DNA from: Rhodocytophaga rosea
GTDB taxonomy: Bacteria > Bacteroidota > Bacteroidia > Cytophagales > 172606-1
Length of the DNA: 64,000 bases
Assembly: GCF_010119975.1 (NCBI RefSeq)
Contig: NZ_CP048222.1
Location: forward strand, 8,904,501-8,968,500
Direction: 5' to 3'
Shown here: positions 18,978-33,498 of the stretch, piece by piece
Layout of the letters: every line of letters starts with the position of its first letter
How positions within the stretch are numbered: the stretch's first letter is position 1
Notes under the pieces: generated by a model
What the model saw: only the letters and a program-made list of their open reading frames with translations
What the model was told of the DNA's origin: nothing
Databases searched by the model: none
Program-made: the position numbers and the translations under genes

Positions 18978-20142
18978 TAGGGTTTCCGCACTAAATATTA
19001 AGTTTTAAGAATAGCTAACAGGAAATTAGTGTCTCTGTTAGCTTTTTTTCTTTTCCGTTTGACACTCACGCAAGAAGGCTCTTTTTTGAGCAGATGCAAA
19101 GACCACTTTCTAATCAGATGCAGATTGATGGGTCCTTTATCTTTCCTGACTTTAGCCTCATCTTCCCTAAAGGTAACATCTAGTTGCCAATGCAAGCCAT
19201 TCTCTATCGCCCAATGGCCTCTTATGTAGCGGCTGTACAAGGCAGGGTCTGTATCTGTTAAACTGCTTATATAGAACAGGGTTTGTTCTTGCTTTTTGCC
19301 TGCTATAATGCGTTTTCTTTCTACCATGACTAAAGTATGTAAGTCCTGCCATTTTTCCTTTTCCTCTACCAAATCAATGCATTGAGCAATATATACCCTA
19401 CGTTCTTCTCCTCTGCCATGGGCTTTATCTAGTTGCTGATTAAAAGCGAGAGCAGACTTATTGATTTGCATAAAATGGGCTACCTGCTCATAGAGTACAC
19501 CTTGATTAGCCTTTAGGGCAATCACATAATGGGCTTGCTTATCCCTGATCTTTTCTACAATTGCCTGCTGACAAGCAATAGCATCTATAGTAATGATACT
19601 ACCTTTGCAATCAAGGGTATCTAATAAAGCAGGAATAGTTGTAATCTCATTACTCTTGGCTTCTACGGCTACTTGTCCAAAGCTTAAGCTATGTTCCTCT
19701 ACCCATACATTGACCATACGAACCAAAGCATGCTTTTTGCCTGCAGGTATAGTACCTCTCAATTCTTTGCCATCTATACATACCTGCTTGCCTGCTAAGG
19801 AGAAGCCAGCTACACACGCTTTGAAGCATTGCTCCAAACTATGGCTATCCAGGTGTCTGATCACCCGATTTAAAGTGTCAGCAGAAGGTATACCATTAAC
19901 AAAACTTAATCCTAGTTCTTGCTGCAGAAACGCTGTATTATCTTTGCCATAATCTGCTATCTCGTCAAAGTCATCACAATCGGCTATTACCCCACATAAA
20001 ACTAAGCCTAAAATATCTGCTAATAGATGTAAGCAGCGGCCTTGCACCCGAAAATCAGCTACTTTGTTTAGTATCTTTTTAAGTTCCATGCACAAAGTTA
20101 GCCCCTCTTTCCTTTTTCTCTATCTTTGGTGCGGAAACCCTA
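18978..20142 (-). mobile_element. ISAs1-family insertion sequence
   Basis: Perfect 14-bp inverted ends (TAGGGTTTCCGCAC) bound the element. The 9-bp sequence TAAACATAT is repeated exactly on both sides (18969-18977 and 20143-20151). The intact duplication points to a recent insertion. Confidence 0.92.
18998..20095 (-). CDS. ISAs1-family transposase
   Basis: This transposase has 365 residues. The N-terminal half carries an H-repeat-associated (DUF4372/DDE-like) segment with LADILGLVLCGVIADCDDFD, and the centre has CIDGKELRG and IITIDAIACQ, which contain two catalytic aspartates. The C-terminal RGHWAIENGLHWQLDV holds the glutamate. These are the family's standard markers. The frame is complete and the element's target duplication is perfect, so it is probably functional. 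Confidence 0.92.
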   Translation of the reverse strand: MCMELKKILNKVADFRVQGRCLHLLADILGLVLCGVIADCDDFDEIADYGKDNTAFLQQELGLSFVNGIPSADTLNRVIRHLDSHSLEQCFKACVAGFSLAGKQVCIDGKELRGTIPAGKKHALVRMVNVWVEEHSLSFGQVAVEAKSNEITTIPALLDTLDCKGSIITIDAIACQQAIVEKIRDKQAHYVIALKANQGVLYEQVAHFMQINKSALAFNQQLDKAHGRGEERRVYIAQCIDLVEEKEKWQDLHTLVMVERKRIIAGKKQEQTLFYISSLTDTDPALYSRYIRGHWAIENGLHWQLDVTFREDEAKVRKDKGPINLHLIRKWSLHLLKKEPSCVSVKRKRKKANRDTNFLLAILKT

Positions 20143-21130: not shown

Positions 21131-22025
21131 TGAGTGTTGCACAACGAAAAAGAGGGCAAAATAAAGGACAGGCAGTTGCTGAAGAGGAAGTATTTGACTT
21201 TTAATTTTTGGTTGATGTATAAGAATAAGCAGTTTTTGCAAATTGTAAGCACAAGGCGTCCGAAGCTGATGCACATTCATAGCAGGTTCAGCATCATTTT
21301 ATGAGCGGCTTGTTTACCTTTTGCATTGCTTCTGCTCATGCCAAAGTAATTGAGTACGCTGCCAAAAACAGGTTCTATGGTAGCCATTCTTTGGCCTTTC
21401 CTTCTCTTGCCTTCCCTGCTTTCCACCCGCTGCTGCATGCGTAATGGACCGATGATGCGGAGCATTAGGTCCAATGATAGCGGCGGTAAATGCTAAACAT
21501 TAAGCTTTGTCGCCTTTTTTTACCACAACATTCTTTTTTTAGCGGACATACACTACAGTCTTTTACTTGAGCATGATAGTAATGGTTAGCAAAGCCTTTA
21601 TCCATTCTAATACCATGGTAATAGAGCAACTTTTTGTTGCAGCATACATAGGCATTTTCCGCTATATCATAAGTGAATCCTTCCCTTGATTGACCCGATG
21701 GCGTAGTCAATTGGGATGGTAACTACCATGTAGAAGAATGAAGCCTTTGATGTGGCATGCCTCCAATGAAGCATGGAGCCGATGAGCGCTCGTAGCAGGT
21801 CTATTCTCCCCAGAACTAAAGCCTGCATCGGCTAATAAGTATTGAAAAGGTAATCCATACTGGTTAAGCTTTCTCGATAACTTGTCTACAATTGCCAATG
21901 AATAACCCCGGGGCAGCGCCCGCGATATCGAGGTTAAAACAAAGAGAGCTGTCCAGTATGTTTCTTCTGATAATGGATTTCTAGCGAAAAAAGGCACTTT
22001 GCAGGAGCATAGCCGGAGGCTATGA
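21131..22025 (-). pseudogene. truncated IS1182-family transposase
   Basis: Four frame pieces reproduce the C-terminal half of the same transposase that is encoded at 58.6-60.2 kb: VDKLSRKLNQYGLPFQYLLAD, the cysteine cluster DCSVCPLKKECC, RRKGQRMATIEPVFGSVLNY and a final PCAYNLQKLL. Stops and frameshifts separate them. The outer end retains GTTGCACAACG, the terminus shared with the 58.6-kb copy, while the other end is lost at about 22025. It is a dead 5'-truncated copy. Confidence 0.75.
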
Positions 22026-22992: not shown

Positions 22993-23436
22993 TTAATCTT
23001 TTTTAGCTACTTCCGGCCAGTTGTTATCAGCCTTTTCGATAAATTCCTTTTGGCTTTTGTTCCAGGTTTGCTGTACCTCTTTGTTGTAGTTTAGGTACAA
23101 CTTATCCGCTACAATGGTCCATGCCTCAGGGTCGGTGGGGGCTTTGTAGCTTTTAGACATACCATAGGCACAATAGCCGCCATACTGCGGAGCAAATTTT
23201 TCCGGGTTGGCTATAAAATCTTCCTTATTTTGCAGGCTGGAAAAATGCCAGTCAGCACCCTTCCAGGTATGGGTGAATTCTTTTTTACCCTCTACCGGTT
23301 TGCCTTCTTTGAAATAAGCTACCGGGTCGTAGCCTCTGATAGCTCCTTGTGCATTGGTGAATACTTCCCCTTTCTGGGCAAAAGCGGACAAGGCAATAAA
23401 CAAAATAAAAAATAAACTACTGGCAATGATTTTCAT
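22993..23436 (-). CDS. exported YHS-domain protein (first copy)
   Basis: The 147-residue protein has a signal peptide (MKIIASSLFFILFIALSAFA) and a YHS-like domain. YHS domains in metal-transport and oxygenase proteins are small cysteine-bearing modules thought to bind metal; here GYDPVAYFKEG and PQYGGYCAYGMSK are the core motifs, with one conserved Cys. The start at 23436 is chosen over 23475 because it puts the signal peptide at the N-terminus. A 16-bp palindrome and a Bacteroidota promoter precede it. A second YHS gene at 26820 has the same promoter plan. Confidence 0.88.
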   Translation of the reverse strand: MKIIASSLFFILFIALSAFAQKGEVFTNAQGAIRGYDPVAYFKEGKPVEGKKEFTHTWKGADWHFSSLQNKEDFIANPEKFAPQYGGYCAYGMSKSYKAPTDPEAWTIVADKLYLNYNKEVQQTWNKSQKEFIEKADNNWPEVAKKD

Positions 23437-23458: not shown

Positions 23459-23486
23459 CAAAAGTATCCTGGCAAATTGTCACCAA
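23459..23486 (-). promoter_or_regulatory. promoter of the first YHS gene
   Basis: On the minus strand TTGG (23483-23486) and TACTTTTG (23459-23466) are separated by 16 bp. They match the Bacteroidota -33 and -7 elements. The palindrome at 23488-23503 ends one base upstream of the -33 element. Confidence 0.7.
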
Positions 23487-23487
23487 G

Positions 23488-23503
23488 TGTCGGGTAGGCG
23501 ACA
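23488..23503. promoter_or_regulatory. 16-bp palindromic operator, divergent promoters
   Basis: TGTCGGGTAGGCGACA has arms TGTCG and CGACA. It lies between the YHS gene and the two-component operon. In both directions exactly 21 bp separate it from a -7-like octamer (TACTTTTG on minus, CACCTTTG at 23525-23532 on plus). A near-identical site lies at 26755-26770. Confidence 0.8.
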
Positions 23504-23570
23504 AACAGCTTATTTTTTTCTTCTCACCTTTGTAACAGTAGGGCCAAACCGGTAAATCATTAAGCAGTTC

Positions 23571-24284
23571 ATGAAGAAAGTACTGATTATCGAAGATGAT
23601 ATACATCTGGTAGAACTTCTGTATATCCATCTTACTGACCTGGGTTGCCAGCCTTCCATAGCACAACTCGGTAAAGAAGGCTTGCAGAAAATGATTCAAG
23701 ATAGCTATGACCTGGTTGTATTGGATATTATGCTGCCCGACCTGAATGGCTTTGATATTTGTAAGCAGATACGCAGCCATGATATACGTATACCCATTCT
23801 GATGCTGAGTGCCAAATCTGAGGAGATAGACAAAGTACTGGGTCTGGAACTGGGTGCAGATGATTACCTGACCAAGCCTTTCTCTATCCGCGAATTTATA
23901 GCCAGGGTGAAAGCTATCTTCCGCCGCAGCGAATCCCAAACTCTCTCTCTTCAAGAGGTGCCTGCCGGAGCTTTTACCCTGGGCGATGTGTACATTGATC
24001 CCCATAAGCGGAAAGTACTGTTAAAAGGCAAAGTGGTAGAACTCACACCCAAAGAGTTTGACTTGCTCTGGTTACTGGCTTCTCATGCCGGCTACAGCTA
24101 TTCCCGCAAAGACATTCTTCGGTTGGTGTGGGGTTACGAGTTTGACGGCTACGAGCATACAGTGACTGCACACATCAACAGGCTCCGAAGCAAAATAGAA
24201 CCCTTACTTTCTGCACCAGCCTATATTCTTACATCCTGGGCAGTAGGGTACCGCTTCACAGATGCTTTTTCACCTCAACCATGA
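23571..24284 (+). CDS. OmpR-family response regulator
   Basis: The 237-residue protein has a receiver domain (residues 1-115; acidic pair in IIEDD, phosphoacceptor D52 in VVLDIMLPD, K in LTKPF) and a C-terminal winged helix with ELTPKEFDLLWLL and VTAHINRLRSKIEP. It overlaps the following kinase gene by 4 bp (ATGA), so the two form a translationally coupled pair. The palindrome upstream places the operon under the same control as the YHS genes, or makes it a regulator of them. Confidence 0.95.
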   Translation: MKKVLIIEDDIHLVELLYIHLTDLGCQPSIAQLGKEGLQKMIQDSYDLVVLDIMLPDLNGFDICKQIRSHDIRIPILMLSAKSEEIDKVLGLELGADDYLTKPFSIREFIARVKAIFRRSESQTLSLQEVPAGAFTLGDVYIDPHKRKVLLKGKVVELTPKEFDLLWLLASHAGYSYSRKDILRLVWGYEFDGYEHTVTAHINRLRSKIEPLLSAPAYILTSWAVGYRFTDAFSPQP

Positions 24285-25768
24285 GCTACCAGCATACTCC
24301 TCCTGCCAGGTTTACAAACAGTTTGTACTGGAAGATATTCTACATTTTCCTGTTCTTGCTCAGCTTGTTATCTTTTGCCTATGTATACATGACGGTAATA
24401 TCCGCCAGAAGGTATTTTGAGGCCTCTCATCAGCGGCTCAACCGCAATGTAGCCGCCCATATTGCCCGTTTCTCCTCCCCTTTTCTCCATGATACCCTGA
24501 GTAAAGCCCAGGCAGAAAAAGTGTTTTTTAATGCCATGGTCATGAACCCAAGTATTGAAGTATATCTGCTAAATCCGGAAGGCAAGGTCCTCTCCTATTA
24601 TGCACCCGAGAAAAAACTACATTTGTCTGCCGTTTCGCTGGTGCCTATCCATGCATTTATTACAGCTGTAGGTAACGATTATATCCTAGGTGACGATCCG
24701 AGAAACAGGGATAAGCAAAAAATATTCTCGGCAGCCAGCATAGAGAAAGGCGAAAAGCTGGTGGGCTATATTTATGTGGTACTGGCAGGAGAAGCATACG
24801 ATACTACTATGAAAACGCTGCTTAACAGGCATATCCTGGGCCTGGCCACTCAGATTATGGCCATTACCCTGGCCGCCACCCTGCTCATCGGCCTTTATGC
24901 TTTTAGGCTGATTACCCGCAACCTGAAAGCAGTTATCAGCACTGTAGAGAAGTTCCACAAAGGAGATTTGCAATCCAGAATAAAAATAGTATCCAGGGAC
25001 GAATTTGCCTTGCTTGCCAGCACCTTTAACCAGATGGCCGATACACTGGCCGGAAACCTGAAAGTGTTAAAAACAGCAGAGGCCCTGCGGCGCGAACTGA
25101 TAGCTAATGTTTCGCACGATTTACGGACACCCATTGCCGCCATACAAGGCTATGCTGAAACCATCATGATGAAAAGTAAGTCGCTGACGAATGCTGACCG
25201 GGAACGCTATACCGGCATTATTTTGCAGAGCAGCGAAAAACTGCGGAAACTGGTAGAGGAACTCTTTGAACTTTCCAAACTGGAAGCCAGTGAGAGTAAG
25301 CCGCATATGGAAGTATTCAATGTGGCCGAGCTGATGGGAGAAGTATTCGTGCAGTACCGGATACTTGCCCAGCCCAAGCACCTTTCTGTGAGCTATACCA
25401 GTTTACAGGCAGCTATACTCGTATGTGCCGATATTGGGATGATAGAAAGGGTCATGCAGAACCTGATAGACAATGCCATCAAATACACACCTGAAAAGGG
25501 CAGTATCTCTATACAGGTAGATGTTATAGGAACGCAGGTGCATATCTCAGTAACCAACACAGGTCCAGGTATTCCTTCCGGACAAATCCCTCACCTATTC
25601 AGCCGCTATGCCACCTCAACCCCCGATAAAAGCCCTCCTTCCGGTATGGGACTAGGACTGGTAATTGTGAAAAGAATACTCGATTTGCATTCATTTCCTA
25701 TTTCTGTAGAAAACACAGCTTCCGGTGAAACACGATTCACTTTCCGGATGCCGGTATACCAGCCCTAA
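24281..25768 (+). CDS. sensor histidine kinase
   Basis: A 495-residue inner-membrane kinase. Membrane helices lie near residues 18-40 and 185-205 with a periplasmic sensor of about 140 residues between, then a HAMP domain, the dimerisation helix with H279 in NVSHDLRTPI, and an ATPase domain with N-box NLIDNAIKYTP and G-box GMGLGLVIV. It is the partner of the response regulator before it. The sensor part is not similar to any domain I can name, so the signal is unknown. Context with YHS and DM13 proteins hints at a redox, metal or envelope signal. Confidence 0.95.
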   Translation: MSYQHTPPARFTNSLYWKIFYIFLFLLSLLSFAYVYMTVISARRYFEASHQRLNRNVAAHIARFSSPFLHDTLSKAQAEKVFFNAMVMNPSIEVYLLNPEGKVLSYYAPEKKLHLSAVSLVPIHAFITAVGNDYILGDDPRNRDKQKIFSAASIEKGEKLVGYIYVVLAGEAYDTTMKTLLNRHILGLATQIMAITLAATLLIGLYAFRLITRNLKAVISTVEKFHKGDLQSRIKIVSRDEFALLASTFNQMADTLAGNLKVLKTAEALRRELIANVSHDLRTPIAAIQGYAETIMMKSKSLTNADRERYTGIILQSSEKLRKLVEELFELSKLEASESKPHMEVFNVAELMGEVFVQYRILAQPKHLSVSYTSLQAAILVCADIGMIERVMQNLIDNAIKYTPEKGSISIQVDVIGTQVHISVTNTGPGIPSGQIPHLFSRYATSTPDKSPPSGMGLGLVIVKRILDLHSFPISVENTASGETRFTFRMPVYQP

Positions 25769-26052
25769 AGGTAACCTGAAGAAATACAGGCCACGAATTT
25801 TAACCAGTAACCGATACAAATAATACATTTTGTTGAGATTTCCGTGAGACTTTCCTCCAGTTAAAATTTTAGGTTTGTTTGCCAATAATTACCCTGCCCT
25901 GGCCAGGTTATAAAAAGTATAAGCAAAAAGGTCAATACGGCTTCAGCGTTGCATTCATGTAGTGCCAACGTTCTGCATAGCGGATTACCAAATTATGTAT
26001 AGTTTTAGTAAATTTAGCAGACCCCTTGCTATTCCTATCAAACTGCCTCATC

Positions 26053-26733
26053 ATGGAAACTGTAAAATACTGGTACCTGAAAAACCACAATCTCTTTTCA
26101 CAAATGAAGGAAAGCGATATTCAAACACTTTGTGTGATTACTGGTTTCAAAAAAGCCTTGAAAAATGAAGTCATCTATTTCACCCACGAACCCATCAGGC
26201 GCATTTATATACTAAAAAAAGGCATCCTGAAAATCGCTCTCATGGATGAAGCTGGCAACGAGCAAACCAAAGAAATTATTCACCAGGGAGACATTTTCGG
26301 AGAGATTACCCTCAATAAACACGCCCACCAGGAAACTGAATACGCCAAAGTCCTTTCAGATGAAGTAGTGATATGTTCCTTTACATTGGATGATTTTGAA
26401 CGTGTACTGGAGCAGAATCCCCTGATTTCTATTAAATTCTCCAAACAGGTAGGCGATAAACTCAAAATGCTCGAAAACCGTTATGCCAACCTTATTTTTA
26501 AAGATGTACGCACCCGCGTAGTAGAATATGTAAAGACCTTTGCCAAAGACAATGGCAAACTGGAAAATAACCACTGGGTAGTAAAAAACTACCTCACCCA
26601 TCAGGACTTAGCCAGCCTTACCGGCTCTACCAGGCAAACCGTAACTTCTATTCTTAACCAGCTGGAGAAAGAAAACAAGCTGGTCTACTCCCGCAGCAAA
26701 ATCACCATCCCCGATATAAATAACCTGCGGTAA
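26053..26733 (+). CDS. Crp/Fnr-family regulator
   Basis: The 226-residue protein has an N-terminal cyclic-nucleotide-binding-like beta barrel (GDIFGEITL is the characteristic phosphate-loop region) and a C-terminal winged helix with LTHQDLASLTGSTRQTVTSI, the recognition helix. No four-cysteine FeS cluster motif of true Fnr proteins is visible, so it may sense a different ligand. I chose the ATG at 26053; the 26026 start adds a hydrophobic extension. It is 86 bp upstream of the second YHS gene, and the palindrome TGTCG-N6-CGACA lies between them, so this protein is the best candidate to bind that site. Confidence 0.93.
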   Translation: METVKYWYLKNHNLFSQMKESDIQTLCVITGFKKALKNEVIYFTHEPIRRIYILKKGILKIALMDEAGNEQTKEIIHQGDIFGEITLNKHAHQETEYAKVLSDEVVICSFTLDDFERVLEQNPLISIKFSKQVGDKLKMLENRYANLIFKDVRTRVVEYVKTFAKDNGKLENNHWVVKNYLTHQDLASLTGSTRQTVTSILNQLEKENKLVYSRSKITIPDINNLR

Positions 26734-26754
26734 CAAAATAAATTTTCCCCCAAC

Positions 26755-26770
26755 TGTCGTTTACCCGACA
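26755..26770. promoter_or_regulatory. 16-bp palindromic operator, second copy
   Basis: TGTCGTTTACCCGACA, reversed, differs from the 23488 site at only 2 of 16 bases. It is centred 29.5 bp before the -7 octamer, the position expected of a class II Crp/Fnr activator. Confidence 0.8.
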
Positions 26771-26799
26771 TTGGCAGCCTTCAATGTTCTTTACCTTTG
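26771..26799 (+). promoter_or_regulatory. promoter of the second YHS operon
   Basis: TTGG (26771-26774) and TACCTTTG (26792-26799) with a 17-bp spacer match the Bacteroidota -33/-7 pattern. The -33 element abuts the palindrome. Confidence 0.75.
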
Positions 26800-26819
26800 A
26801 ATCAACAAAGCAAAGAACC

Positions 26820-27296
26820 ATGAAAAATCTACTCGTTTTACTTACTACCCTGACCGCCGTTGCAGGTATATTTCACCAGGCTTGGGCACAGAATGAAGGA
26901 TCAAGAAGACTCAAACATTACAACCTGGAGCAAACCCTCGCCATTGGCGGCTATGATCCGGTAGCCTATTTTACGCAGAATAAAGCCCTGGAAGGCAAAA
27001 AATCCAATACCTATACTTACCAGAATGTGACCTATTACTTTGCCAGCCCGACTAACCTGGAATCTTTCAAAAAAGAACCTGCCAGATATGAACCCCAATA
27101 CGGCGGCTGGTGTGCCTATGCCATGGGTGAAACCGGAGAAAAAGTGGAAATAGACCCAGAAACATTTAAAATACTCGATGGCAAGCTGTATTTATTTTAT
27201 AATAAGTTATTTACCAATACCTTGCCCAAATGGAACAAAGATGAGGCAAACCTGAAGAAAAAAGCCGATATCAGCTGGGCTAAACTCTACCAGTAA
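26820..27296 (+). CDS. exported YHS-domain protein (second copy)
   Basis: A 158-residue homologue of the 22993 gene, with the same signal-peptide plan and the motifs GGYDPVAYFTQ and PQYGGWCAYAMGE; the C-terminal LYLFYNK and the tryptophan-containing tail also match. The two are divergent enough not to be a recent duplication. The start at 26820 is supported by the signal peptide (MKNLLVLLTTLTAVAG). It opens a same-strand run of about ten genes. Promoter and operator lie directly upstream. It may carry or buffer metal in the periplasm, but this is an inference from the YHS family. Confidence 0.88.
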   Translation: MKNLLVLLTTLTAVAGIFHQAWAQNEGSRRLKHYNLEQTLAIGGYDPVAYFTQNKALEGKKSNTYTYQNVTYYFASPTNLESFKKEPARYEPQYGGWCAYAMGETGEKVEIDPETFKILDGKLYLFYNKLFTNTLPKWNKDEANLKKKADISWAKLYQ

Positions 27297-27314: not shown

Positions 27315-27740
27315 ATGAGAAAAAAATATATATTTCTATTGCTGGCAGGAATACTGATGCTGGCAGCTTGTAAACAAGATGAACCCGCCCCTGTAGTGGA
27401 AATGCTGGACCTGGGCAATGATACTCTACAGCTTACCGGTATGTTTCAGCAGGAAGTGCATGCTACCAGCGGAACCGTAAAGATGTTGCGCCGTGAAAAT
27501 GACCAGCTCCTGGTACTGGAAAACTTTAAAACAGATTATGGACCTTCTTTATATGTATATCTTTCCAAAGACAGAGGGTTTACACAAAGCCTTAACCTGG
27601 GTTTATTAAAATCCACCTCCGGCACCTTCAGCTATGAGGTAGCTGCCACAGTAGATACCAGAGAATACCCTTATGTGCTTATCTGGTGCCGGCAGTTTGC
27701 CGTTCTGTTTGGTTCTGCCAGGCTTGAAACACCTCAATAA
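27315..27740 (+). CDS. lipoprotein with a DM13 domain
   Basis: The 141-residue protein has a signal peptide and lipobox LAAC (C19), then a single DM13 domain: GMFQQEVHATSGTVKM, YGPSLYVYLSKD and YVLIWCRQFAVLFGSA. The Cys in IWC is the conserved cysteine of the domain. DM13 occurs beside DOMON and cytochrome domains in animals and bacteria and was proposed to take part in electron transfer; that role has not been settled. It is 18 bp after the YHS gene and certainly in the same transcript. The neighbourhood (YHS, DoxX, YceI) favours a membrane or periplasmic redox function. Confidence 0.85.
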   Translation: MRKKYIFLLLAGILMLAACKQDEPAPVVEMLDLGNDTLQLTGMFQQEVHATSGTVKMLRRENDQLLVLENFKTDYGPSLYVYLSKDRGFTQSLNLGLLKSTSGTFSYEVAATVDTREYPYVLIWCRQFAVLFGSARLETPQ

Positions 27741-27785: not shown

Positions 27786-28181
27786 ATGAAAAAAACAACC
27801 CTGTATCTTTCCTGGGCATTACAAATACTCTGTGCCATTATTCTGCTGCAAACACTGTTTTTTAAATTCAGTGGCGCTGAAGAATCGGTGTATATTTTCG
27901 ATAAGGTAGGGCTGGGCGCAGTAGGCCGCATCGGCACCGGGATTGCAGAAATGTTTACATCCATTCTGCTTCTGATTCCTGCAACAGCCTGGCTGGGCGC
28001 TATCCTGGGTATTGGCCTGATGGCTGGAGCCATTATGTCTCACCTGACTATACTGGGCATTGAGGTCATGGGCGACGGCGGATACCTATTTGCTCTGGGC
28101 CTTATTGTGCTGCTTGGTTGTGTAACGGTGCTGTATACCCGTCGCAAACAAATACCTGTATTGGGTGCCCGGCTGAAATAA
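27786..28181 (+). CDS. DoxX-like membrane protein
   Basis: A 131-residue inner-membrane protein with four hydrophobic helices, the layout of the DoxX/DoxD-like family. Members include quinone-linked oxidoreductase subunits in archaea and the SodA-linked DoxX of mycobacteria. Motifs supporting the family are the first helix with LLQTLFFKFSG and GRIGTGIAE, which match the family pattern. It follows the DM13 gene by 45 bp, giving a compact YHS-DM13-DoxX trio. Confidence 0.75.
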   Translation: MKKTTLYLSWALQILCAIILLQTLFFKFSGAEESVYIFDKVGLGAVGRIGTGIAEMFTSILLLIPATAWLGAILGIGLMAGAIMSHLTILGIEVMGDGGYLFALGLIVLLGCVTVLYTRRKQIPVLGARLK

Positions 28182-28363
28182 ACAATTGCCCGGTTGATGT
28201 ATCAATTAAGAGTTTAGCCATTCGTTTTTAGCGAGTAGCCTGTAGCTAGATATCTGGAAAGCAATAAAATAAGCCAGCAAAAACACCTCAATACTTCTGC
28301 TCAAAACTTAAAACAGCCGGCCTGCGACGCTTCCCAGTATGTTCCTCCCACAACCACCTCTTT

Positions 28364-29107
28364 ATGAAAAACATAGTTAGTTGTATATTGTTCATTTTCC
28401 AGCTGCCCCTTGCAGTATATGCACAAAAAGACTTTGTTGCCTACCAGTGTTTCTCTCATCTGGAACTGGCTTTGTCTACAAGAGGCGGACAAGCGGCAGT
28501 GGCATTATCCGGGGCAAAACTCTATGGACTGGGGCAGAAAAAGCGTTTTAAAGCCGGCTTTGGTCTGCGGTTTACTTCCTACTTTGGCAACAATCAAGAC
28601 TTTGTAACAGCTCCTGCCCGGCTTACCAGCGGCAAAACCGGACCTACGGTTATCTTTACTGAAGACATCCCGGCAAACTTCGACACTCTTTTTCTGTCCA
28701 ATTCCCAGATTAACTTTCTGAATGCCGCTATCTTTCTGCAATATAGTATTTTGCCCCACCTGGACGTAGGGTTTAATATTGATGCCATTGGCTTTAGTAT
28801 TGGCCAGGAACAAACCGGCACCTTTATGGCCTTGCAGAGTGACGAAGCCTCGCTGCATAACACCCGTCAAAGCGCCAGACCTACTTCTTTCAACCTGCTG
28901 CTCTCTTCAGATAACGACATTGGAAGCCTGAATTCAGAGTTTTTTCTGCGATACTGGATAAAACCTGCCTGGGGAATAAAGATAGGTTATACTTTCCTGT
29001 TTGCCGAATATACCACCAGCCGGGAACTGACGTATACCAATGACCGCTTCCGCAACAAAGCTGGCATGTTTATGCTTGGATTCACCTATGCACCTTTTAA
29101 AAAATAA
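28364..29107 (+). CDS. exported protein, possible outer-membrane beta-barrel
   Basis: The 247-residue protein starts with a signal peptide ending in VYAQ and continues with alternating polar and hydrophobic residues and aromatic strand ends (FKAGFGLRFTSYFGN, AIFLQYSILPHLDVGF). The final strand MFMLGFTYAPF and the F near the C-terminus fit outer-membrane barrels. No family is recognised. It lies 182 bp after the DoxX gene and 5 bp before the YceI gene, so it may lead a second transcript or belong to the first. Confidence 0.7.
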   Translation: MKNIVSCILFIFQLPLAVYAQKDFVAYQCFSHLELALSTRGGQAAVALSGAKLYGLGQKKRFKAGFGLRFTSYFGNNQDFVTAPARLTSGKTGPTVIFTEDIPANFDTLFLSNSQINFLNAAIFLQYSILPHLDVGFNIDAIGFSIGQEQTGTFMALQSDEASLHNTRQSARPTSFNLLLSSDNDIGSLNSEFFLRYWIKPAWGIKIGYTFLFAEYTTSRELTYTNDRFRNKAGMFMLGFTYAPFKK

Positions 29108-29112
29108 GCCTT

Positions 29113-29661
29113 TTGACATATTCCCCTAACTATATCCGGTATTTGAGTATTGCAGCCATCCTGTTGGTGCTCACTGCCTTCATAAGGGTGAACTGGAAGT
29201 TGAAGCATTCGACTGTTACTTTTAAAATAAAACATGCCGGATTGCTGGTAAACGGCTCATTAGCTAGCACGCAAGCCAATATAAATTTTGATCCGGCTAA
29301 TCTGGCACAAAGTACCATTGTTGCCTCTGTGGAGACAAACACTATTGAAACAGGTATTGCTTTGCGAAACAAGCACCTTCGAAAAGAACAATATTTACAC
29401 GTAGACAAATTTCCCAGGATCACCATGCGTTCCACGAGGATGGAGAAAACGGGCTCACAGGATTATCTTGCCTATTTTGATCTGACCATTAAAGGAACAA
29501 CAAAAAATATTCAGGTACCTTTTAGGTTTGTAGAAAATGCCTGTGGCGGAGATTTTAAAGCAGAATTCAGCCTTAACCGGCTGGATTATAAAGTACGCGA
29601 ATCCAGCTGGCTGATGGACAACGAAGTACAAGTTTTTATTCAATTAAATGTAACCCGCTAA
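29113..29661 (+). CDS. YceI-family protein
   Basis: A 182-residue secreted lipocalin-like protein: WKLKHSTVTFKIKHAG, then VETNTIETGIALRNKHLR and a closing SWLMDNEVQVFI are the YceI signatures. Family members bind amphiphiles such as polyisoprenoid quinones in the periplasm. The start codon appears to be TTG at 29113, because no ATG lies before the signal-like hydrophobic segment; an internal start would remove it. Its stop overlaps the DinB start (TAATG), so the two are translationally coupled. Confidence 0.85.
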   Translation: MTYSPNYIRYLSIAAILLVLTAFIRVNWKLKHSTVTFKIKHAGLLVNGSLASTQANINFDPANLAQSTIVASVETNTIETGIALRNKHLRKEQYLHVDKFPRITMRSTRMEKTGSQDYLAYFDLTIKGTTKNIQVPFRFVENACGGDFKAEFSLNRLDYKVRESSWLMDNEVQVFIQLNVTR

Positions 29662-30173
29662 TGCCCTCAACTTTACAGCAACACACCGTAAGTACCCTTC
29701 ATCAATTGATTGATTTGCTTTTGCAGCTCGACTCTCTTACTTACGCACAGCCGCTGCCCATATTATCGGGCGGTTCTCTGAGCGGGCATGTGCGCCATAT
29801 TGCAGAATTTTACCTCTGCCTGTTTCAGGGTCTGCAAAATGGACAGGTAGATTACGATGCCCGCAAGCGTAATCGTTTACTGGAAACCGATAACCTGTTT
29901 GCTATACAAACCCTGCAAGAAATTATAAGGAATGTAGAAGAAATAGAGGAAGATAAATTGCTGTACCTGAAAGCCGCTTATATGGCTGAAGGGTCCTTGC
30001 TGGTGCAAACCACACTCTACCGGGAGTTGATTTATAACCTGGAACATTGCATTCATCACCTAGCCACGATCCGCATTGGAGTAAGTGCCTTAACAGACCA
30101 GTATTCTATACCGCACAACTTCGGTGTAGCTCCCTCCACCATCCAACACCGGCAATCCACATGTGCACAGTAA
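29661..30173 (+). CDS. DinB-like four-helix protein
   Basis: A 170-residue soluble helical protein of the DinB/YfiT superfamily, in which three histidines typically bind a metal. Here H in SLSGHVRHIAEF and in ELIYNLEHCIHHL are at the expected positions. Relatives include bacillithiol and mycothiol S-transferases, but the substrate cannot be told. The gene overlaps its neighbours at both ends (start with YceI, stop with the NRDE gene), so all three are made together. Confidence 0.7.
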   Translation: MPSTLQQHTVSTLHQLIDLLLQLDSLTYAQPLPILSGGSLSGHVRHIAEFYLCLFQGLQNGQVDYDARKRNRLLETDNLFAIQTLQEIIRNVEEIEEDKLLYLKAAYMAEGSLLVQTTLYRELIYNLEHCIHHLATIRIGVSALTDQYSIPHNFGVAPSTIQHRQSTCAQ

Positions 30174-30880
30174 CTTTTATTCCAGAAGGCAAGCAGGGCT
30201 TTATTTTAACCTCTAACCGCGACGAAAAACTTACCAGGCCCCTGTCAGAGCCACCCCGCAGGTACCACCTGGATTCGGGCATTGTGGTGTTTCCCAAAGA
30301 CCCGCAGGCAAACGGCACCTGGATAGCCATGGGCAGCAGGAAAATAAGTTTATGTTTGCTCAACGGGGCTTTCTCCAATCATGTAAGCAGGCCTCCTTAC
30401 CGCCGTAGCCGTGGACTGGTGCTACTGGATTTTTTTGACTACACCTCAGCTACTGGGTTTATTTCTACTTACGATTTTGAAGGAATTGAGCCTTTCACAT
30501 TGCTTGTACTGCAAACCCAGGAAAAGCTTTCGTTGGTAGAAATCCGGTGGGATGGCACACATATTCACCTGATGCCAAAAGATGCTGCAAAACCGCAAAT
30601 ATGGTCTTCGGCTACTTTGTATGCTCCCTCGGTGTGTGTGCAACGGGAGCTGTGGTTTACCCGGTTTCTGGCTATGCAGGACCAACAGGCAGAGGCAGAT
30701 ATTATGCACTTTCACCGCTTTGCCGGCATAGACGATAGCCACAATGCCTTATGTATGCAGCGCGGCAACGAAATACAAACCGTGAGTATTACGTCTATCC
30801 GGGCCAATGATGCCGGAGAGCAGGTAATGACCTATCATGATCTGGTGCGGGAAACCAGGCAGTCTTACCGCATTTTCTGA
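30161..30880 (+). CDS. NRDE/TANGO2-family protein
   Basis: The 239-residue product begins MCTVTF and has the family motif LTSNRDEK at residues about 19-26. That N-terminal Cys and the NRDE motif resemble an N-terminal nucleophile hydrolase active site. TANGO2 homologues have been linked to heme handling and lipid homeostasis in eukaryotes, and the bacterial HtpA/NRDE group is related. The ATG at 30161 exposes the second-residue Cys and is preferred over the longer frame from 30047, which only duplicates the DinB C-terminus. The gene overlaps the DinB gene by 13 bp. Confidence 0.85.
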   Translation: MCTVTFIPEGKQGFILTSNRDEKLTRPLSEPPRRYHLDSGIVVFPKDPQANGTWIAMGSRKISLCLLNGAFSNHVSRPPYRRSRGLVLLDFFDYTSATGFISTYDFEGIEPFTLLVLQTQEKLSLVEIRWDGTHIHLMPKDAAKPQIWSSATLYAPSVCVQRELWFTRFLAMQDQQAEADIMHFHRFAGIDDSHNALCMQRGNEIQTVSITSIRANDAGEQVMTYHDLVRETRQSYRIF

Positions 30881-30924
30881 GAAACAGCCTCCTCTTTTAT
30901 ATACAATCTATTTTATTGCCCAAT

Positions 30925-31974
30925 ATGAATTCTGTAAAGTATTTGAACCTTTGGACCAGGCTGATCAACTGGGAATACTGGCCCTTTGAAGTAGTATATT
31001 TCCCGATCTTCTTCTACTGGTTATGGTTGTCTGTGAAAGCCCGGTCCTTTTTTTTCTTTTCTGCGGCCAATCCCTCTATAGAATCAGGTGGTATGCTGGG
31101 CGAGTCTAAATACGGAATATTAAAGAGCTTGCCGGAAGAGTTTATCCCTAAAACGCTCTTCATAAAAACACCTGCGGATATAGATGCTATTCTAAAAAAA
31201 ATACAGGCCGCAGGCATCACCTTTCCGCTGATCGCCAAACCAGATGTAGGGGAGCGGGGCTGGAAAGTAGAAAAAATCCATAACCGGCAGGAACTGGAAG
31301 TCTATATACAGCAAATGCGGGTACCCTTTCTGATTCAGGAATATGTAGCCTATGAGATTGAACTAGGCGTGTTTTACTACCGCTTCCCTTCCCAGACAAA
31401 AGGCCGTATTTCTTCTGTTGTAGTGAAAGAATTTCTCACCCTTACAGGAAACGGAAAATCTTCACTGCAGAAGTTGATACTCAATCACCAGCGGGCAAGG
31501 CTCCAATATGAGGTATTGGCAGAAAAGTATCAGGTGTTGATGAAAGAAGTGTTGGCGGATGGCAACAAAATCACCTTGGTCTATATTGGGAACCATTGCC
31601 GCGGAACCAAGTTTGTGGATGGAAATTATCTAATTAACGAAAGCCTGGTTAGTGTATTCGACAACATCAGCTGTTCTGTGCCTGGCTTTTATTATGGCCG
31701 CTACGATATCCGCTGCCGGAGCCTGGAGGAACTATACCAAGGCAAAAGAATAAAAATCTTAGAACTGAATGGTGCAGGTGCTGAACCAGGGCATATTTAC
31801 GACCCCAAGTTTCCGTTCCTTCAGGCATACAAAGTGCTGTTTGATCACTGGAACGTATTGTATCAGATCAGCAAGGCTAATTATGAGAAGGGCATCGCCT
31901 ATATGAGTGCTCGGGAAGCCTGGCAAACGGTGAGCAAACTCCGAAACTACCGCAAACAGATGAAAGAAGCATGA
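30925..31974 (+). CDS. ATP-grasp-domain protein with N-terminal hydrophobic segment
   Basis: This is a 349-residue protein. An aromatic hydrophobic stretch (about residues 20-45, WPFEVVYFPIFFYWLWL) may anchor it to the membrane. It is followed by an ATP-grasp fold: FPLIAKPDVGERGW (phosphate-loop region), FLIQEYVAYEIELGV and ILELNGAGAEPGHIY, the metal-binding acidic and Asn residues. ATP-grasp enzymes join a carboxylate to an amine or thiol. No partner substrate is evident. Starting at ATG 30925 is preferred over the TTG at 30916. The gene is followed by a LysE-type exporter, so a ligase-plus-exporter pair for a small amide is conceivable but unproven. Confidence 0.8.
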   Translation: MNSVKYLNLWTRLINWEYWPFEVVYFPIFFYWLWLSVKARSFFFFSAANPSIESGGMLGESKYGILKSLPEEFIPKTLFIKTPADIDAILKKIQAAGITFPLIAKPDVGERGWKVEKIHNRQELEVYIQQMRVPFLIQEYVAYEIELGVFYYRFPSQTKGRISSVVVKEFLTLTGNGKSSLQKLILNHQRARLQYEVLAEKYQVLMKEVLADGNKITLVYIGNHCRGTKFVDGNYLINESLVSVFDNISCSVPGFYYGRYDIRCRSLEELYQGKRIKILELNGAGAEPGHIYDPKFPFLQAYKVLFDHWNVLYQISKANYEKGIAYMSAREAWQTVSKLRNYRKQMKEA

Positions 31975-31990
31975 AACAAGTTTTCCAATT

Positions 31991-32602
31991 ATGAACCATT
32001 TAATACTTAATTTTATGGCCGGTGCTCTGGTGAGCTTTTTGGGTTCCCTGCCAGTAGGTATCCTTAACTTAACCATTATGCAGATATCCCTGCAAAAAGG
32101 GCTCAAAGGAGCTTTGCTTTTTGCTTTGGCCTGTGCCATCATAGAACTGGGATACAGCTACATAGCTGTACGCATGAGTGGGGCACTGGTGGACTTTGCC
32201 ATGTACAAAAACCCAATTCGATTTTTTTCTATTGCCTTATTTCTGGTAGCAGGCATTGGCTACCTGCGTAAAAAACCTTCCGGACAAGTGGTGCAATATA
32301 GCCTGGGGCCTTTTTCTTTAGGAATTGTACTTAGTATCCTCAATGTAATGGCTATTCCTTTCTGGCTGGTATATACGGCTGTATTATCGGCTTCCCAATG
32401 GATTGCTGTTGACGCTGCAATAGAGATAGCCTGGTTTGTAACAGGCATCTCCCTAGGAACCCTACTGGGTTTAATGACTTTTGCCCTGTTAAGCCGGCGC
32501 ATACATAAGCAGTTTTCGCTGCAAAGCAGCCTGGTTAACAAAGTGGTAGGCTTAATACTGATTGGCTCCTCCCTGCTGGAACTAATACACCTAGTAAACT
32601 AA
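31991..32602 (+). CDS. LysE-family exporter
   Basis: A 203-residue inner-membrane protein with six hydrophobic helices. GSLPVGILNLTIMQISLQKG near the N-terminus is the family signature. LysE/RhtB proteins export amino acids and related small molecules. It follows the ATP-grasp gene by 16 bp and precedes the hydrolase gene by 23 bp, so it is cotranscribed with both. Substrate is unknown. Confidence 0.85.
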   Translation: MNHLILNFMAGALVSFLGSLPVGILNLTIMQISLQKGLKGALLFALACAIIELGYSYIAVRMSGALVDFAMYKNPIRFFSIALFLVAGIGYLRKKPSGQVVQYSLGPFSLGIVLSILNVMAIPFWLVYTAVLSASQWIAVDAAIEIAWFVTGISLGTLLGLMTFALLSRRIHKQFSLQSSLVNKVVGLILIGSSLLELIHLVN

Positions 32603-32625: not shown

Positions 32626-33498
32626 ATGCATCATCCTAAGCCTGCTTACATCAAATGGTTTTCAGGCACCGGTATCCTGCTGCTTCTGGCGCTGTTGCCC
32701 AGGTGTATGAGCCTGCATATGTCTGATAAGAAGGTAGCAGAATACTTTAAGGATGCACCCGCTAAACCTTCCTTTTACGAATATACGCTCAATAACCACC
32801 GCATACATTACGCAGCTATGGGTGCTGATACACTGCCTATGGTGGTGTTTGTTCATGGTTCACCTGGTTCCTGGGATGCTTTTATCTCCTTTTTTAAAGA
32901 TACCACTCTTTACAAAACAGCAAGAATAGTATCGGTAGACAGGCCTGGATTTGGAAAATCGGGGTATGGCAAGGTAGAAAAATCCCTGCAAGCGCAAGCG
33001 GCCTTACTCATGCCTATTTTACAAACTAGCAGATCTACCACTCAACCTCTGTTGGTGGGCCATTCTCTGGGAGGCCCGGTAGTCAGCCGCATGGCGATGG
33101 ATTATCCCCATCTGGTAGGTGGCTTAATACTGGTGGCTCCTTCCATTGACCCGGAACTGGAAAGATGGGAATGGTACAGGCATTTGGGCAAATTTTTCTT
33201 GTTCAGGGCCATTATTCCCAAAGAACTTGACGTAAGCAACCAGGAAATTTTACCTTTAAAAAAGGAACTCGCCAGCATGCTGCCGATGTGGGCAACAATC
33301 CAGGTTCCGGTAACTGTTATTCAAGGGGAAGAAGATAAGCTGGTGCCTCCTGGCAATGCCACATTTGCCAGAAAAATGCTTGTAAATGCTCCTACACAGG
33401 TGTGGATGATACTTGATATGAACCATTTTATCCCCTGGAGCCGCCCAGACCTGATTACTCAGGCCATACTTGAATGGATGCATAGCCATGATAAATGA
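32626..33498 (+). CDS. alpha/beta hydrolase with N-terminal signal or anchor
   Basis: The 290-residue protein starts with a hydrophobic segment (about residues 12-28, ending PRC), so it is probably exported or anchored. It then shows an alpha/beta hydrolase with oxyanion segment VFVHGSPGSWDAF, nucleophile elbow GHSLGG (S147), acid in GEEDKLVP and a His in DMNHFIPW. It appears to close the long same-strand transcript. The frame is intact. The substrate cannot be read. Confidence 0.85.
   Translation: MHHPKPAYIKWFSGTGILLLLALLPRCMSLHMSDKKVAEYFKDAPAKPSFYEYTLNNHRIHYAAMGADTLPMVVFVHGSPGSWDAFISFFKDTTLYKTARIVSVDRPGFGKSGYGKVEKSLQAQAALLMPILQTSRSTTQPLLVGHSLGGPVVSRMAMDYPHLVGGLILVAPSIDPELERWEWYRHLGKFFLFRAIIPKELDVSNQEILPLKKELASMLPMWATIQVPVTVIQGEEDKLVPPGNATFARKMLVNAPTQVWMILDMNHFIPWSRPDLITQAILEWMHSHDK

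Follow-up and report, generated by a model that had tools for sequence, protein, structure and literature searches.

We analysed a 64,000-nucleotide stretch of the Rhodocytophaga rosea genome (contig NZ_CP048222.1, positions 8,904,501 to 8,968,500 of the forward strand; hereafter the window), in which two similar palindromes lie ahead of two genes for YHS-domain proteins and of a two-component regulatory pair, close to a gene of the Crp/Fnr family. The palindromes, called operators 1 and 2, and the features around them are listed below; other genomes (G), contigs (C) and loci (L) are cited by our own handles, G002 and G006 being members of the same family from another genus.

22993..23436, minus strand: YHS1, a member of the YHS-domain (seleno)protein family with Cys (PF04945, NF041384; signal peptide by eye)
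23459..23466, minus strand: -7-like octamer of YHS1, TACTTTTG, 21 bp from operator 1
23488..23503: operator 1, palindromic, TGTCGGGTAGGCGACA on the plus strand, common to the divergent YHS1 and response-regulator promoters
23525..23532, plus strand: -7-like octamer of the response regulator, CACCTTTG, 21 bp from operator 1
23571..24284, plus strand: OmpR-type response regulator (Pfam)
24281..25768, plus strand: sensor histidine kinase (HAMP, HisKA, HATPase_c; relatives in G002 and G006)
26053..26733, plus strand: Crp/Fnr-family regulator, the proposed operator binder by co-occurrence and proximity (Pfam cNMP_binding, HTH_Crp_2; recognition helix TRQTVTS)
26755..26770, plus strand: operator 2, palindromic, TGTCGTTTACCCGACA, upstream of YHS2
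26792..26799, plus strand: -7-like octamer of YHS2, TACCTTTG, 21 bp from operator 2
26820..27296, plus strand: YHS2, a YHS-domain protein, first gene after operator 2 (NF041384; PF04945 below cut-off; signal peptide by eye)

Each operator is palindromic at six of its eight base pairs and carries TGTCG half-sites, which do not match the cAMP-CRP half-site TGTGA. Two palindromes thus face three promoters, with exactly 21 bp between palindrome and octamer in all three. A preliminary description of this DNA had reported that gap, the positions of palindromes, octamers and Crp/Fnr gene, and two base changes between the palindromes. On re-reading the sequence, the gap and every coordinate proved correct, and the two changes hold when operator 1 is read on the minus strand, that is, towards its YHS gene (TGTCGCCTACCCGACA, with TGTCGTTTACCCGACA for operator 2); with both read on the plus strand there are four.

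By itself the palindrome shows no enrichment in the 8.98 Mb genome, since TGTCGN6CGACA occurs at three places, two of them the window operators, and the backwards pattern at four. The third place (C1:2354357) has no octamer within the mismatch limits of the full-unit search. Enrichment belongs to palindrome, spacing and octamer together. The two strands of the window together contain 118 copies of the octamer pattern YANNTTTG, a chance of about 0.001 at a given position, and the full unit, TGTCRN6YGACA-N21-YANNTTTG, has three exact matches in the whole genome, all in the window, none with one mismatch and nine with two; the reversed-pattern control gave 34 at up to two mismatches. With nothing beyond the window's three, the unit is not frequent at random positions, a concern raised when the motif was first described.

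A profile built from ten relatives of the Crp/Fnr protein led to 80 loci, comprising 49 from Bacteroidota (L026-L074) and 31 outside controls (L075-L105). The unit is present in 31 of the 49 and in none of the controls. In spacing tallies, where related species count separately and events are not independent, the 49 loci (up to one palindrome mismatch, spacings 8-35) gave 43 octamers at 21 and six elsewhere, single ones at 10, 12, 17, 18, 22 and 34. At spacing 21, eleven permuted half-sites gave 0-1 octamers and palindrome gaps of 2-5 and 7-10 gave none. Exact palindromes in 163 loci found by protein matches only had 41 distinct octamers at 21 and three at other spacings within 0-59, and a wider locus set that includes loci chosen for their sites gave 48 at 21 versus 3 elsewhere. 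Named hosts of the site are Runella, Emticicia and Flectobacillus, together with Flavobacterium, which has two changes in the strict palindrome. YHS2 orthologues lie behind the same operator in related loci, and conservation ahead of orthologous YHS genes, suggested at the outset as a check, extends to motif, 21-bp spacing and octamer in several genera. We reject a chance origin of the unit on the spacing counts, the genome-wide rarity and the reversed-pattern controls.

The unit also follows the Crp/Fnr gene across genomes. The order is represented by 194 genomes. Exact units, 40 in all against 3 for the reversed-pattern control, occur in 30 of them, and a Crp/Fnr relative at E<=1e-30 in 57. 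At this threshold gene and unit coexist in 27 genomes, 30 contain just the gene, 3 just the unit and 134 neither (p=4e-14, genomes being counted, here and at the stricter threshold, regardless of kinship); units are therefore found in 27 of the 57 genomes with the gene versus 3 of the 137 without. The corresponding counts at E<=1e-60 are 19, 11, 11 and 153 (p=1.5e-11). A set of 395 genomes of the class yielded 26 units in 21 genomes (reversed pattern, 2), three site-bearing genomes being shared with the order set. For class-only genomes, the gene was found in 10 of 18 with a unit versus 4 of 21 hand-picked ones without (p=0.02). Of the 37 genomes that have both, 19 place an exact unit no more than 5 kb from the Crp/Fnr match, and in 11 of these 19 the distance is 12-400 bp. 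Within the window's family, compared through draft genomes of which some are incomplete, 5 of 8 genomes yielded both the Crp/Fnr gene and YHS2, and the remaining 3 yielded neither.

Three further observations concern this distribution. In G222, two exact units (C40:2154 and 3224; L226, L237) flank the Crp/Fnr gene (C40:2535-3203) and face outwards. G383 (L229, 60% complete) and G258 (L230, 83%) have units with AT-rich centres before a thioredoxin gene and no Crp/Fnr match at E<=1e-30. G322 has exact units before MsrB (C10:40455, L218) and MsrA (C37:30221, L236); there the operator may be recognised by a different regulator. We rejected the idea of a motif common to Crp/Fnr proteins throughout the phylum, as G001, from the same genus as the window, has 0 exact sites; at the thresholds used it has neither the Crp/Fnr gene nor YHS2.

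Behind YHS2 the window continues with a run of genes in the same direction:

27315..27740, plus strand: DM13 protein, lipoprotein-like by eye (PF10517; directly behind the site in L206 and L227)
27786..28181, plus strand: DoxX-like membrane protein (PF13564 below cut-off; directly behind the site in L195 and L233)
28364..29107, plus strand: exported protein resembling a beta-barrel outer membrane protein (OMP), labelled by eye, no Pfam family (homologues directly behind the site in L194, L207, L209 and L222)
29113..29661, plus strand: YceI-like protein (PF04264)
29661..30173, plus strand: DinB-like protein (no Pfam match; the L199 homologue matches DinB_2 below cut-off)
30161..30880, plus strand: TANGO2 family protein (PF05742; homologue behind the site in L211)
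30916..31974, plus strand: ATP-grasp-like protein (RimK domain, marginal; conserved in the cluster)
31991..32602, plus strand: LysE-type transporter (PF01810; homologue behind the site in L219)
32626..33498, plus strand: alpha/beta hydrolase, which ends the co-directional run (conserved in L026-L028)

An operon starting at YHS2 is suggested by strand and spacing, and a further promoter may lie in the 182 bp ahead of 28364. A scan for sigma70-type promoters returned 16 promoter-like sites where 18.2 were expected; terminator-like sites numbered 19 against 11.3 expected (standard deviation 3.3), with none within 28181-28364. The two YHS proteins carry GYC and GWC where the family has GxU, the position of selenocysteine according to an excerpt of PMC13188914, and a redox cysteine is therefore likely in both, judging from sequence. 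Elsewhere in the same genome, L189 (G000:C1:6129000-6137000) holds a paralogous YHS gene in the neighbourhood of TANGO2- and LysE-like genes, a stretch that carries no operator. To the left of YHS1, the list of open reading frames shows, by eye, a transposase-like frame at 18998-20095 and transposase remnants at about 21300-22000.

The genes behind sites in other genomes overlap with this cluster. The order and class genomes provided 61 exact units, picked blind to genes, and the DNA behind 57 was examined. A homologue of a window-cluster gene comes first behind 27 of the 57 (24 of 54 once the three from the window are set aside), encoding a YHS, response-regulator, OMP-like, DoxX, DinB-like, DM13, TANGO2 or LysE protein. 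Other first genes, by Pfam, encode MsrA (L216, L231, L236), MsrB, recognised by its SelR domain (L218), AhpC/TSA (L202, L215) and thioredoxin (L230); by eye, L232 resembles L231 and L229 resembles L230, and the first gene in L117 is a DUF2652 gene. Both G002 and G006 have units ahead of MsrA and of a gene with a DM13 match, each with one octamer mismatch. A single palindrome in G006 lies between divergent MsrA and DUF2652 genes, the same layout as for YHS1 and the response regulator in the window. In G002, the unit precedes an Ig-like/DM13 lipoprotein-like gene (DM13 below cut-off) followed by a gene without Pfam family, a response regulator and a histidine kinase; these last two close a run of genes in one direction that the same palindrome leads, its octamer having one mismatch. 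The small regulon that the preliminary description had proposed is supported for the YHS genes and for the sensor kinase link, which recurs in G002; DM13, DoxX and YceI lack sites of their own in the window and are tied to it only as genes downstream of YHS2.

The candidate binder belongs to the Crp/Fnr family by its PF00027 (1.3e-13) and PF13545 (2.2e-11) matches; its structure model (pLDDT 78) gives the expected fold only, with Foldseek matches to GlxR/CRP. It shares with Escherichia coli CRP the fold, the domain make-up, the recognition-helix arginine (R180, retained in 41 of 41 relatives) and a predicted class II position at -41.5, and differs at E181, which is Gln in 41 of 41, while the operator reads TGTC instead of TGTG. 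In CRP, E181 and R185 contact the base pair that distinguishes TGTGA from TGTCR; with the arginine kept and E181 replaced by Gln, the recognition helix fits TGTC in place of TGTG. CRP R82 (numbered without Met1) is not conserved either: its column, approximate because it falls in a gapped and poorly aligned loop, holds Glu in the window protein and E, S, T and others elsewhere, with Arg in 5 of 41, which makes a cyclic nucleotide an unlikely ligand. The [4Fe-4S] cluster of FNR needs four cysteines, and the window protein has two only, C27 and C108. C108 is present in 50 of 50 loci. H12 and C27 occur together in 37 of 37 (L001 and L026-L061); among the 13 loci L062-L074, both are missing in 11 and C27 alone in 2. 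The unit, at up to one mismatch, is found in 29 of the 37 loci with H12 and C27 versus 3 of the 13 others.

The -7 box of Flavobacterium psychrophilum spans -12 to -5 (a passage of PMC9723704), and a start set from this box would put the palindrome at -49 to -34 with its centre at -41.5, the predicted arrangement of a class II activator and in agreement with the placement first suggested for this locus. The transcription start of YHS2 is predicted near 26804 from a logo built on 53 distinct units with no more than one mismatch in the palindrome, 94% of which have a purine at the inferred +1. Conservation is stronger in the promoter-near half, CCGACA, than in the far half, and the fourth half-site base is C in 94% and G in none, under a search pattern that permitted one mismatch only. 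The first base of the octamer is C rather than T in 53% of the 53 units and in 32 of 79 of a wider set in which this base was left free.

These observations make it probable that a dedicated local Crp/Fnr activator drives envelope redox and repair genes together with a sensor kinase pair. A dimer of the 26053-26733 protein would bind TGTCR-N6-YGACA at -41.5 and, as a class II activator, would recruit RNA polymerase. Its three target promoters would be those of YHS1, of the response regulator-kinase pair, and of YHS2 with the DM13, DoxX, OMP-like, YceI, DinB-like, TANGO2, ATP-grasp, LysE and hydrolase genes, operator 1 feeding two divergent promoters; raised levels of the regulator-kinase pair would then form a second regulatory layer. 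As the unit heads MsrA, MsrB and AhpC/TSA-type genes in relatives, the regulon most likely guards or repairs cell-envelope proteins against oxidants, which would presumably also be the signal. A comparable set is known under extracytoplasmic-function sigma factors: the RpoE2/SigE regulons of Haemophilus and Neisseria contain methionine sulfoxide reductases and a DoxX operon, and H. influenzae RpoE2, which responds to envelope oxidants, unites msr genes and the DoxX operon in the hypochlorite response (PMC7907618). They differ in using a sigma factor where we propose a Crp/Fnr activator, and YHS, DM13 and YceI are unmentioned in the main text of that source. HcpR, the haem-dependent nitric oxide regulator of Porphyromonas gingivalis and others, is likewise a Crp/Fnr protein of redox stress, as an excerpt of PMC12750200 describes it, but its delta-proteobacterial sites are given as TTGTGA-N6-TCACAA or atTTGAccnnggTCAAat in a passage of PMC545781.

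Several points weigh against this reading. Among genomes in which the Crp/Fnr protein has a match, 30 of 57 (E<=1e-30) and 11 of 30 (E<=1e-60) have no exact site; conversely, 3 of the 30 site-bearing order genomes and 8 of the 18 class-only ones lack a match at E<=1e-30, among them G322, with its sites before MsrA and MsrB, and G132, with a site before MsrA. In 18 of the 37 genomes with both, no exact site lies near the Crp/Fnr gene, and in the window no motif precedes the Crp/Fnr gene itself. The site ahead of YHS2 in G004 has one mismatch each in palindrome and octamer, the inferred start base of YHS1 is T and not a purine, and 20 of the 57 exact sites have no linkable gene, or no open frame, behind them. 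The RQ recognition helix is also found in Bacteroidota relatives with site-free loci, so the helix alone is insufficient for specificity. Finally, the oxidant link comes from gene content alone.

The site could instead be the operator of a Crp/Fnr repressor that blocks RNA polymerase until a signal arrives, and the palindrome does end at -34, adjoining the -33 region. We regard this as improbable: the strict 21-bp spacing (41 versus 3) and the centre at -41.5 speak for contact with polymerase, whereas repressors tolerate many positions, and the many octamers that begin with C suggest that these promoters are weak and need assistance.

A response to carbon monoxide or another haem-borne gas, as with CooA, in place of oxidants has a similarly small chance of being correct. 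The window protein resembles CooA in its Crp/Fnr fold, in the operator form TGTCR-N6-YGACA and in presumably acting as an activator; CooA chains are among its PDB matches, and the clade linked to the site is distinguished by a His and a Cys (H12, C27). The window sites agree with the CooA operator, TGTCGGCnnGCCGACA in a passage of PMC545781, on the outer five bases of each arm, and the inner GC/GC is partly kept. However, Pro2, the haem ligand of CooA (an excerpt of PMC12750200), is replaced by Glu in the window protein, whose N-terminus is Met-Glu-Thr, and invariant C108 with clade-specific H12 and C27 is found instead. No CO dehydrogenase was recognised by eye among the first genes behind sites, no dedicated search for one being made. 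The residue at the place of CooA His77 may be I85.

That the response regulator (23571-24284), initially listed as a candidate binder, and not the Crp/Fnr protein would bind the palindrome and autoregulate its own operon is very improbable and was rejected: its gene stands directly behind operator 1 and its G002 relatives close a run led by the same palindrome, but OmpR-type regulators usually read direct repeats, the incomplete genomes G004 (75%) and G007 (72%) have site and Crp/Fnr gene with no kinase homologue at E<=1e-60, and among L026-L074 regulator and kinase matches occur within the locus DNA only in L026, against 31 loci with the unit.

We found no account of a regulon of this kind in the literature searched, which consisted of open-licence papers. 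The activator proposed here might represent a wider, and more speculative, picture, which we hold to be possible but rather doubtful: a Bacteroidota-wide Crp/Fnr subfamily, neither cyclic-nucleotide sensor nor CooA, that would sense envelope oxidants directly through H12, C27 and C108 (as thiols or via bound haem or metal) and turn on an undescribed YHS/DM13/DoxX/Msr repair programme via a CooA-like operator at -41.5, the sensor kinase pair forming a second tier under the control of the activator. If the binding holds, a CooA-type operator would be used by a protein without the Pro2 ligand of CooA. The strict architecture (21 bp, YANNTTTG) permits a pattern-only search for the regulon in other Bacteroidota genomes. 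For the little-characterised YHS (seleno)proteins and DM13, DoxX-like, TANGO2 and DinB-like proteins of Bacteroidota, this work proposes a regulator, an operator and a role open to experiment.

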